Assembly (NCBI RefSeq): GCF_029502005.1
Contig: NZ_JAMQOT010000004.1
Location: 124,001-188,000 of the forward strand
Reading direction: 5' to 3'
Source of the DNA: Natrinema salsiterrestre
GTDB lineage: Archaea; Halobacteriota; Halobacteria; Halobacteriales; Natrialbaceae
DNA length: 64,000 bases
Shown: positions 31,890 to 48,089 of the stretch, one piece after another
Numbering within the stretch: the first letter of the stretch is position 1
How the letters are laid out: every line of letters begins with the position of its first letter
Translations under genes and position numbers: made by a program
Notes under the pieces: generated by a model
What the model was told of the DNA's origin: nothing
The model's input: only the letters and a program-made list of their open reading frames with translations
Database searches by the model: none

Positions 31890-32746
31890 CGGCTCGCCGA
31901 CCGCCGAATCGCCGTCCCGAGCATGCTGATCGCGCACTACCGGTCGCTTTCGCTCGCGAGACTGGCCGGGTAGTCTCTTCGGCAGACTCACCTGTCTCAC
32001 GTGACGGAGAGCTGCGACGAACGCAACCGCGACCGCTTCGGTTTCAATCGGCGGTCACCGACGGCTCGTCGCGAGGGGGGACTCTCGAACTCGCTGTCCC
32101 AAAACGGAAGATGGAGTGGGGAGAGGGGGGCCTCTGGATGGGGATGCAGAGGCGGTTAATTGTTGTTAGATATCACTATTAACAGTTTCGATACACAGCC
32201 GGTCGGCGTGGGCCTTCCGTCCCGGACCTCGGACGAGGGCGGAATAAATCGGTATGGGGCGAGCATGTGGTACTCGAGTCGGTCGCGACTGCCCGACCGC
32301 ACGCGTTCGGACGGCTCCGCGGGAGTTCTTCGACTCGGTTTCCGCACGGTGCGTTATCGCCGAGCCTCGGCGTCCCGCGTCGCCCCCAGGGGGCTTTCGA
32401 TGAGACAGACCGGCGACCGGGCCCTATCAGCGACGGGCTTCGACACGGACGTCGCCCCTGGCGGCCGTGTCCTCGGCCACGAGAGGCTTTGTCGCGTGCG
32501 TCCACCGGCCCTTTCGGTCCCGATCGCTACGGACTGCCTTTTGTTCCGCCGGGGGCAGGGAGTGACCCCCATAGTTGGATATCTCACACTATTATGTAAT
32601 CCTTTCGAACAGTCGCCGGTCCATCGGGCTGCGACCGGTGGCGTTTCAGCGGCGATTCCGCTCGAGAGTGGTCCCGTTTGCGGATTCGGATTTGTGGCCG
32701 GCGATACGGATGGGCTCCTTGGCTCGGTCTCGAGAGAAAATCGGAA
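31890..32746. other. Long intergenic region rich in GC palindromes, candidate unknown RNA
   Basis: About 860 bases with no plausible protein frame. A hairpin at 32130-32153 (GCCTCTG/CAGAGGC) is followed by an AT-rich block that could be a terminator or promoter (32156-32200). Between 32330 and 32570 there are many short stems: CGCCGAG/CTCGGCG, CCCCC/GGGGG, GACACGG/CCGTGTC and GGGGG/CCCCC. I could not match it to RNase P RNA or SRP RNA by their conserved boxes. Confidence 0.4.
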
Positions 32747-32836
32747 GTGGGATTCGAACTACGGTCGTTCCGCTCCGCTCTCGCTTCAAATCCCGTAGAG
32801 ACGTTTCGCTCGCTCACGTCCGTTCGCGAGCAGAAA
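32747..32836 (-). repeat. tRNA-3'-end-like inverted repeat and hairpin downstream of tRNA-Thr
   Basis: Read on the minus strand after tRNA-Thr: a hairpin GCTCGC/GCGAGC (plus-strand arms 32808-32813 and 32826-32831), then GGGATTTGAA (32785-32794 complement), about 22 bases, then GTAGTTCGAATCCCAC (32747-32762 complement). The last element copies the T-arm of a tRNA, and GGGATTTGAA is its inverse. The same arrangement occurs at 47761-48005 behind tRNA-Ser. Confidence 0.6.
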
Positions 32837-32910
32837 AGCCAGGGGTGGGATTTGAACCCACGAAGTCTCGATTACAAGTCGAGTGCATGAACCGCCCATG
32901 CTCCCCTGGC
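32837..32910 (-). tRNA. tRNA-Thr (anticodon UGU)
   Basis: Acceptor GCCAGGG pairs with CCCTGGC, with U as discriminator, as expected for archaeal tRNA-Thr. D-arm GCAT...ATGC, anticodon stem CTCGA/TCGAG with loop CTTGTAA giving anticodon TGT, variable loop ACTTC, T-arm GTGGG-TTCAAAT-CCCAC. No CCA encoded, no intron. It starts only 12 bases after the stop of the acetyltransferase gene on the same strand, so it may be co-transcribed with it. Confidence 0.96.
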
Positions 32911-47480: not shown

Positions 47481-47760
47481 GGTCCTGAGCAGGATCTGAG
47501 CTCGCCGATCAACCGATCTCATATTTCAGCTGATAAATCCGTCTCAGTAGTAGCACGTCAATTCTCTCTGTGACACCTGATCCGTCCTCCCGATGTGCGG
47601 TGGCGCGCGCTGTCGGCCGACTGAGCGCCTCGCAAAGCGAAGTCGGCCGACGACGTTGTGCGAGGGATGAGTGAGCGAGCACAGCGAGCGAACGAATCGG
47701 TTGGGGAGGGCGTGGCGATTCCCTGTTACCACGATAGCAGGACTGCTGTTTTCGTTTAGG
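47481..47760. other. Intergenic, repeats of GTCGGCCGAC
   Basis: No gene seen. The palindrome GTCGGCCGAC occurs twice (about 47613 and 47650), separated by a GC-rich spacer with AAAGCGAA. An AT-rich patch at 47520-47545 follows the end of the methylaspartate operon and may hold a terminator. Confidence 0.45.
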
Positions 47761-48005
47761 GTATCTCATTCGAACTACGCCCAGGCATGCTCGCTTCGCT
47801 GCGCGCGACTTAATTCAAATCCCACCGTTCCTTCTCCGCTCGAGAGATTCCTCACTGCGTTCGTCGTATTCTCTCGCGGAAAACGGTGGGGATGGGATTC
47901 GAACCACGGTCGGAGCCAAGCTCCTCCCTGATTCAAATCCCAACGTGTCGTCTTCTCACTCGCGATACTCCTCGCGGTGCTCGTCGTATTGTGCTCGTGA
48001 GAAGA
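47761..48005 (-). repeat. Array of tRNA-3'-end-derived repeats downstream of tRNA-Ser
   Basis: Read on the minus strand from the tRNA end: a hairpin with perfect arms GTCTTCTCAC/GTGAGAAGAC (47997-48006 and 47950-47959), then TTGGGATTTGAATC (47932-47945), about 25 bases, then GTGGTTCGAATCCCATCCCC (47887-47906) followed by ACCG and TTTTCC; a second hairpin CGAGAGA/TCTCTCG (47841-47847, 47870-47876), GGGATTTGAA (47814-47823), then GTAGTTCGAATGAGATAC (47761-47778). So the 3' end of a tRNA is copied at least once almost perfectly and again in decayed form, each time with its inverse beside it. Confidence 0.65.
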
Positions 48006-48089
48006 CGGTGGGGATGGGATTTGAACCCATGAGGCTTGACAGCCACCTGCTCTCAAGGCAGGCGCGTTGGGCCGCTCTGCCACCCCACC
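48006..48089 (-). tRNA. tRNA-Ser (anticodon UGA)
   Basis: Acceptor GGTGGGG pairs with CCCCACC, discriminator G as expected for serine. Anticodon stem CCTGC/GCAGG with loop CTTGAGA, anticodon TGA. The long variable arm (class II) is TGGCTGTCAAGCCTC-like, and the T-arm is ATGGG-TTCAAAT-CCCAT. No CCA encoded, no intron. Confidence 0.95.

Follow-up and report, generated by a model that had tools for sequence, protein, structure and literature searches.

What is the tRNA-like piece that stands behind the tRNA-Thr gene of a 64,000-nucleotide (nt) stretch of the Natrinema salsiterrestre genome (contig NZ_JAMQOT010000004.1, positions 124,001 to 188,000; the window), and why does it recur, in the same order of parts, behind a tRNA-Ser gene? 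The window belongs to a 4.79-Mb haloarchaeal genome (labelled G000, contig C22), and tRNA-Thr(TGT) and tRNA-Ser(TGA), both on the minus strand, are the only tRNAs that ARAGORN finds in it. When the downstream sequences of the 43 tRNAs of this genome (RF00005) are collected, many show one layout: a T-rich trailer with a first hairpin, a short antisense arm (antitail) that complements the start of the tail of its own tRNA, a second hairpin, and the last 20 nt of this very tRNA, which begin at T54 in the T-loop and end with the discriminator base. We consider it highly probable that such a unit is a non-coding cassette, precise, specific for its tRNA and exchanged between species, in view of the match to its own tRNA, the limits of the module and the transfer between species described below.

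At tRNA-Thr (32837-32910, minus strand, as are all features of the window given here), positions 54-73 of the tRNA form the tail TTCAAATCCCACCCCTGGCT (32837-32856). The T-rich trailer and hairpin 1 follow directly (32795-32836; fold -14.8 kcal/mol, z -1.42), and the hairpin leads to GGGATTTGAA (32794-32785), 22 bases and GTAGTTCGAATCCCAC. The first of these pieces is the antitail, which pairs with the first 10 nt of the tail copy, with one G.T pair. The hairpin-2 region extends from the antitail to the tail copy (32759-32784, GCGAGAGCGG...GACCGTAG), and the copy itself, TTCGAATCCCACTTCCGATT (32739-32758), is decayed to 14/20 matches with the tRNA-Thr tail. That the same arrangement stands behind tRNA-Ser (48006-48089, tail TTCAAATCCCATCCCCACCG at 48006-48025), as the sequence-only reading had it, is borne out, in fact by two tandem rounds. 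The first comprises hairpin 1 (47943-48005, fold z -5.54), the antitail TGGGATTTGAA (47932-47942), hairpin 2 of the TCAGGGAG..CGACCGTGG type (47904-47931) and the tail copy TTCGAATCCCATCCCCACCG (47884-47903), which agrees with the tRNA-Ser tail at 19/20 positions. The second round is more decayed. It starts with a hairpin 1 (47827-47883) of a type also found behind tRNA-Ser in genomes G012, G008 and G010, continues with the antitail GGTGGGATTTGAA (47814-47826) and hairpin 2 (47775-47813), and closes with a strongly decayed tail copy (TTCGAATGAGATACCC.., 47755-47774, 11/20).

Exact matches to GTTCGAATCCCA occur in the window only in the tRNA-Thr and tRNA-Ser units, and the form with one mismatch, GTTCAAATCCCA, is confined to the two tRNA genes themselves; together, these are 4 matches for 0.37 expected, a number reached in none of 100 shuffles. 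A chance repeat is rejected by this shuffle test and by the counts of own and other tails given below. The tRNA-Thr unit of the window is a worn cassette, with an antitail that is intact over ten pairs, a copy at 14/20 and a hairpin-2 stretch of ordinary folding energy (z -0.81), whereas the first tRNA-Ser unit is fresher (copy 19/20, hairpin-2 stretch z -4.41), with the worn second unit behind it. Taken alone, the tRNA-Thr copy is too worn to prove descent from the neighbouring tRNA, as its own-tail score is 10.5 and three other tRNA tails score equally high or higher. In G004 and G013, the tRNA-Thr tail copy is exact (20/20).

Does the copied piece belong to the tRNA in front of it? Full tRNA sets were compared for G000, G004 (same genus), G067 (same family) and G126 (same order); the set sizes differ from the RF00005 count, since a few additional tRNA-like genes are called by ARAGORN in the sequences retrieved. 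With a score of 14 or more as threshold, the own tail is found downstream of 16/45, 22/44, 24/49 and 21/43 tRNAs, respectively, so that tail copies follow 36-50% of the tRNAs in the four haloarchaeal genomes. By contrast, the tails of other tRNAs reach this score downstream in 0/1946, 0/1856, 7/2306 and 2/1764 comparisons, and own tails are found upstream 1, 1, 0 and 1 times. The copies at 14/20 or better number 127 across the four genomes, with up to five behind one tRNA, and a few of them are chance matches, while others represent second genes for tRNA-Asp; the 117 that have an antisense arm were kept for sizes and T-runs, and removal of two tRNA-Asp second genes and one tRNA-Gln neighbour leaves 114 units for the analysis of pairing. 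At variable positions, the antitail forms Watson-Crick pairs with the own tail at a frequency of 0.751, compared to a mean of 0.546 (standard deviation 0.013, maximum 0.591) for 2000 permutations. For example, tRNA-His, which has the T-loop TTCGATT, is followed by the arms GCGAGAATCGAA ... TTCGATTCTCGC, which are specific for this tRNA. By these counts, tail copy and antitail follow the local tRNA in each genome.

Each of the four genomes carries 18 to 40 units. These stand behind 79 tRNAs, singly in 51 cases and as two to five units in the other 28, and the distance from the tRNA to the end of the copy has a median of 122 nt (5-95% range 95-220, 117 units). In contrast to dispersed repeats (repetitive extragenic palindromes, REP/REPIN, or miniature inverted-repeat transposable elements, MITE), which have one consensus independent of the neighbour, the units have ends specific to the neighbouring tRNA. 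The sequence-only reading had taken the TTCGAATCCC part to be independent of the adjacent tRNA, which is contradicted genome-wide, where this piece represents positions 54-73 of the tRNA that it follows. A free-standing repeat unrelated to the neighbouring tRNA is rejected in general by the tail specificity, although the worn tRNA-Thr unit alone is undecidable in this respect. The broader idea that the unit is an element in its own right survives in part: it is distinct, exchangeable and recurs behind different tRNAs, but its end piece copies the tail of the neighbour. The check set in advance, a comparison downstream of the tRNA genes of the genome, revealed similar units behind many of them, and not the absence that would have spoken against the proposal.

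If the units are cassettes, related genomes should be found with and without them. At tRNA-Thr, the filled site of G004, read from base 0 past the copy, aligns with the empty site of G007, read from base 0 past the tRNA, at 273/301 positions, and the sequences upstream of tRNA-Thr agree at 290/300. The filled site of G013 likewise aligns with the empty site of G010 from base 0 (169/250). The difference between sister genomes in these alignments is one whole cassette, neither more nor less, and the flanks are intact. Among 29 genomes that belong to the genus, filled loci number 4 for tRNA-Thr, 21/30 for tRNA-Ser and 22/29 for tRNA-His. In a tree of the upstream flanks, each of the four genomes with a filled tRNA-Thr site branches singly among empty ones, which amounts to four changes; one of the four, in both the locus counts and the tree, is G021 with a partial tRNA duplication. 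The duplication in G021 (L289), a copy of positions 27-72 directly behind tRNA-Thr without antitail, is of a different kind. Some empty sites retain a lone hairpin 1 or a degraded unit (G016, G002, G019), and turnover therefore includes decay.

Exchange between species is indicated by near-identical units (99%) in non-sister species with flanks that are only about 80% alike. There are 19 pairs of cassettes with at least 88% identity, although in some of them the cassettes match about as well as the flanks or less. Clear cases are tRNA-His in G009/G007 (cassette 101/102, upstream 322/402) and G028/G005 (80/82, 330/401), tRNA-Ser in G021/G000 (98/102, 319/400) and G002/G020 (151/153, 344/398), and the pair G003/G006 (87/94, 310/392). 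Past the tail copy, only 27/45, 26/41, 25/44, 27/42 and 19/42 positions agree over the next 40 nt in these five pairs, in the same order, and upstream of the tRNA, identity falls to background within about 100 nt. Non-sister species, as compared here, thus share cassettes as modules, with the tRNA as one boundary and the tail copy as the other. Cassettes are also common to tRNAs of a single genome that have identical tails (8 pairs in total, among them Lys-ttt/Lys-ctt in G067 and Val-gac/Val-cac in G126), and behind tRNA-Ser, hairpin-1 and hairpin-2 types occur in many combinations. In two of three comparisons of sisters, the extra cassette is proximal to the tRNA, namely in G028 versus G021 (homology of the distal cassettes judged by eye) and in G026 versus G015 (distal cassettes 84/95).

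How widespread are the units? The strict pattern GATTTGAA N17-46 TGGTTCAAATC is present in 105/149 genomes including G000, with no match in the reversed control. In a phylum-wide draw, it was found in 30/43 genomes of the same order and in 1/203 outside the order, and this single match looks like chance. A stricter pattern (type A) identified at least 118 stretches in named genomes; the titles seen for 80 of them are all haloarchaeal but one, an unclassified 'Euryarchaeota archaeon' metagenome-assembled genome. Among the matches listed for the type-A stretches, a set independent of the four genomes, 117/127 lie 3' of a tRNA in sense orientation, at a distance of no more than 900 nt. The own tail is matched at 20/20 positions in 76/117 and at 18/20 or more in 96/117 of these cases, compared to 192/12998 control comparisons in which the tails of other tRNAs reach 18. 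The other 10/127 listed matches are without such a tRNA, and four of these ten are near a contig start.

In the folded unit, the helix of antitail and tail runs inward as a short helix, followed by an internal loop and then a variable hairpin; pairing fades outward from position 64, yet the copy is identical to the tRNA up to position 73. In RNA folding calculations, the strand in tRNA sense has the higher stability of the two strands in 87/114 units and the lower in 25/114, compared to 64:67 of 132 control stretches, a bias that fits either an RNA or the sense strand of DNA. With paired boxes, a loop between them, a variable tip and one favoured strand, the architecture resembles that of attC sites; the likeness is one of architecture only, and no sequence kinship is claimed. 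The units also resemble integrative elements in that the 20-nt tail (54-73) is repeated at both ends and in that relatives have empty target sites. By eye, a hairpin core GCGAACGAAGTGAGC / GCGAGCGAAGCGAGC recurs within hairpins 1 and 2 (for example in L019 and L027). It reads stem-GA-pair-GNA-pair-GA-stem, and there may accordingly be selection for tandem G.A pairs and for a GNA triloop. A kink-turn or guide-RNA reading of the GA-rich internal loops was dropped, as no box motif was seen by eye.

How, then, could a cassette be placed so exactly behind a tRNA? In the mechanism that we propose, recombination would take place in the tRNA tail, and strands would be exchanged at some point between TTCRAAT and the 3' end. 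Because the cassette brings a tail with it, the tRNA would stay functional; the previous tail would be displaced downstream, where it would now be seen as the copy. Less firmly, insertion could be due to a site-specific (tyrosine) recombinase that recognizes the antitail/tail hairpin of the folded sense strand, much as integron integrases recognize attC. After insertion, cassettes would decay in place, as at the tRNA-Thr gene of the window, or be lost between the direct repeats. A recombinase that acts at the tail with an attC-like hairpin would explain the boundaries, the exact tails and the folded strand. Archaeal XerA, for comparison, is reported to bind stem-loops of attachment (att) sites, with lower affinity than the dif site (PMC8371274). 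Taken by itself, movement of the cassettes by a recombinase step is a real possibility that falls short of being probable; for the combination of non-coding tRNA-3'-end cassettes with recombinase-mediated insertion, we would cautiously lean towards yes.

Several observations weigh against this proposal. Deletion between 20-nt direct repeats would also leave a precise absence, and pairs of filled and empty sites alone are therefore no proof of insertion. The tRNA-His cassettes of G026/G015 (84/95, flank 375/400) and several other pairs are less alike than their flanks, as under ordinary vertical descent, and in the third sister comparison, G011 versus G010, the extra cassette is distal. Hairpin-2 types are common to tRNAs with different tails, which movement by the tail alone does not explain. 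The strand asymmetry of mismatches opposite T and C is modest (G.T 31/358, A.C 19/363). No recombinase gene is present in the cassettes, and none is consistently adjacent to them; with a length of about 95-220 bp, the units are too short for an integrase gene. Finally, two short queries of phage and plasmid collections returned no cassette.

The serious rival is recombination by short homology. One crossover in the tRNA gene, which is identical over its 74-84 bp, and another in the tail copy of 20 bp could move a cassette passively, by homologous recombination without a dedicated enzyme, and unequal crossing-over between tails could multiply it. The tRNA and the tail copy that bound the shared tract are exactly the identical stretches, the equal-tail tRNA genes of one genome share cassettes in the 8 pairs mentioned, and tandem copies are common (28/79 unit-bearing tRNAs with two or more). 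On the other hand, the second crossover would have only 20 bp of homology, and the first appearance of a matching antitail cassette behind so many individual tRNAs would go unexplained, as would the conserved folded architecture. We judge passive exchange as the whole account to be possible, if on the unlikely side.

Alternatively, the unit might be a functional RNA of the tRNA trailer, a backup terminator or 3'-processing decoy that would be co-transcribed with the tRNA, with an antitail that pairs with the copy, which would give a harmless hairpin with a T-run, or with the tRNA tail, and with a fold under selection. The better folding of the sense strand would be expected in this case. Moreover, at least three T within the first 8 nt are found after 50/117 tail copies and 65/181 tRNAs, compared to 64/1781 control places, and hairpins and T-stretches are reported to be able to terminate transcription in Haloferax volcanii (PMC7237163). 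The units have the hairpin followed by a T-run that is characteristic of intrinsic terminators, and each tail copy may double as a transcript end. However, a terminator needs no exact copy of the tail, the copy stays identical to position 73 although pairing already fades from position 64, and the presence is patchy (4/29 genomes for tRNA-Thr, 21/30 loci for tRNA-Ser, 22/29 for tRNA-His). A trailer RNA as the explanation of the units is therefore regarded as unlikely.

Could the tail copies instead be old attR sites, left when ordinary integrated viruses or plasmids decayed? Integrases are reported to target tRNA 3' ends in archaea, including haloarchaea (PMC8371274, PMC3119063), and partial tRNA duplications occur at haloarchaeal prophages according to PMC3119063. 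In G015, two copies of tRNA-Ser(TGA) enclose an element of about 8.4 kb that has two Phage_integrase genes (L349, G015:C2:2400800-2411800). On both sides, a similar flank comes after the tRNA, in one case with a cassette and in the other without. In G067, an integrase-like open reading frame is found just behind the Glu-ctc cassette (L283:607-1656), with a Phage_integrase score of 24.5 bits that is below the curated cut-off. Larger integrase-bearing elements thus use these tRNAs, as at tRNA-Ser of G015, but they are not the cassettes. A search of two genomes for the Phage_integrase family gave 9 matches in G000, one of them within 2 kb of a tRNA, and the stretches fetched beside three integrase-near tRNAs (two in G067, one in G000) held no convincing distant tail copy of a full integrated element. 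The narrow size range and the conserved order of hairpin, antitail and hairpin at many tRNAs would not be left by random decay, which makes this origin improbable.

A viral or plasmid origin was also considered and rejected: besides the two short queries mentioned, 38 viral contigs match a loose pattern, but no matched stretch resembles the unit of haloarchaea, and the majority appear to be fortuitous, in DNA of low guanine-cytosine (GC) content. Three high-GC viral contigs (L096:1104-1162, L101:366-403, L121:10968-11016) have a near-perfect inverted T-arm pair (CATGGATTTGAACCATG ... CATGGTTCAAATCCATG), which is perhaps an attachment site with an antisense arm. Fold-back (template-switch) replication errors, in which a polymerase copying back over hairpins wrote the order of tail, antitail and tail, are very improbable: sense and antisense tail pieces do alternate with hairpins between them, but hairpins 1 and 2 recur at several tRNAs and in several species and so are not local products, and the cross-species identity of whole cassettes weakens the idea further.

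Some other RNA features came to light. A tRNA-His-like gene, 92-93% identical to tRNA-His and with an altered anticodon loop, forms a second locus in many genomes of the genus (L501:3013-3085, which is G000:C24:45513-45585; L502:1976-2049; L503:1966-2039), and is absent from the RF00005 listing of G000. Near tRNA-Val-cac of G000, there is a second tRNA-like gene on the minus strand (L027:856-928), to which ARAGORN assigns a four-base anticodon (atgt). In a haloarchaeon, L019:749-848 (minus strand) has a strong match to the L4-Archaeoglobi ribosomal leader of Rfam (RF03135, 74.6 bits).

None of the Rfam families, including rtT, matches the unit; the 11 loci with E <=1 are tRNA, 5S rRNA, one ribosomal-protein leader and one hit below the cut-off. 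The literature, as far as it was covered (largely open-access), contains no description of such units, and this kind of genome traffic seems undescribed. If the cassettes are mobile, they would be integrative units of very small size that manage without a gene and spare the tRNA by carrying its exact tail. They would illustrate how tRNA genes serve as archaeal recombination hot spots, and would provide every tRNA with a site of integration that is natural and portable. Should the RNA reading hold instead, the units would be a large unnoticed class of tRNA trailers.

Among known systems, the E. coli tyrT repeats (rtT RNA, RF00391) are tandem repeats behind a tRNA gene, each with the 3' end of that tRNA. 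Unlike the haloarchaeal units, they concern one tRNA in one bacterial group and are not known to have an antitail hairpin. In Methanopyrus kandleri, about half of the tRNA genes are followed, at a distance of about 10 bp, by a palindrome (PMC5217627). It resembles the haloarchaeal units in being palindromic and in accompanying about half of an archaeon's tRNAs, but in the description given there it is short, has one general consensus and no tail copy, and is reported to be specific to M. kandleri (PMC5217627). Archaeal elements that depend on tyrosine recombinases (SNJ2, SSV, pNOB8 and others), as presented in PMC8371274, are similar in having a tRNA 3' end as target, a restored tRNA and a displaced copy of the end. 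They are, however, kilobase-sized and carry an integrase, whereas the units span about 95-220 bp, are gene-free, are often in tandem and have an antisense arm.

Only tentatively, one may think of a haloarchaeal integron-like system, in which tRNA tails would act as attI and hairpin-ended non-coding cassettes would be captured, exchanged and stacked by a recombinase that is possibly of the Xer type. Integron cassettes form arrays of small units that end in a folded inverted-repeat attC site with a variable tip. The haloarchaeal units differ from them in being gene-free and archaeal, and their fixed site would be a tRNA tail, different for each tRNA. Unlike for integrons, no integron integrase was identified in the general Phage_integrase search of two genomes, which included no IntI-specific model. 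The likeness to integron cassettes lies in the arrays of small units, the folded inverted-repeat end and the precise modular exchange, and perhaps in the position of the extra unit, which is beside the fixed site in two of the three sister comparisons and distal in the third.
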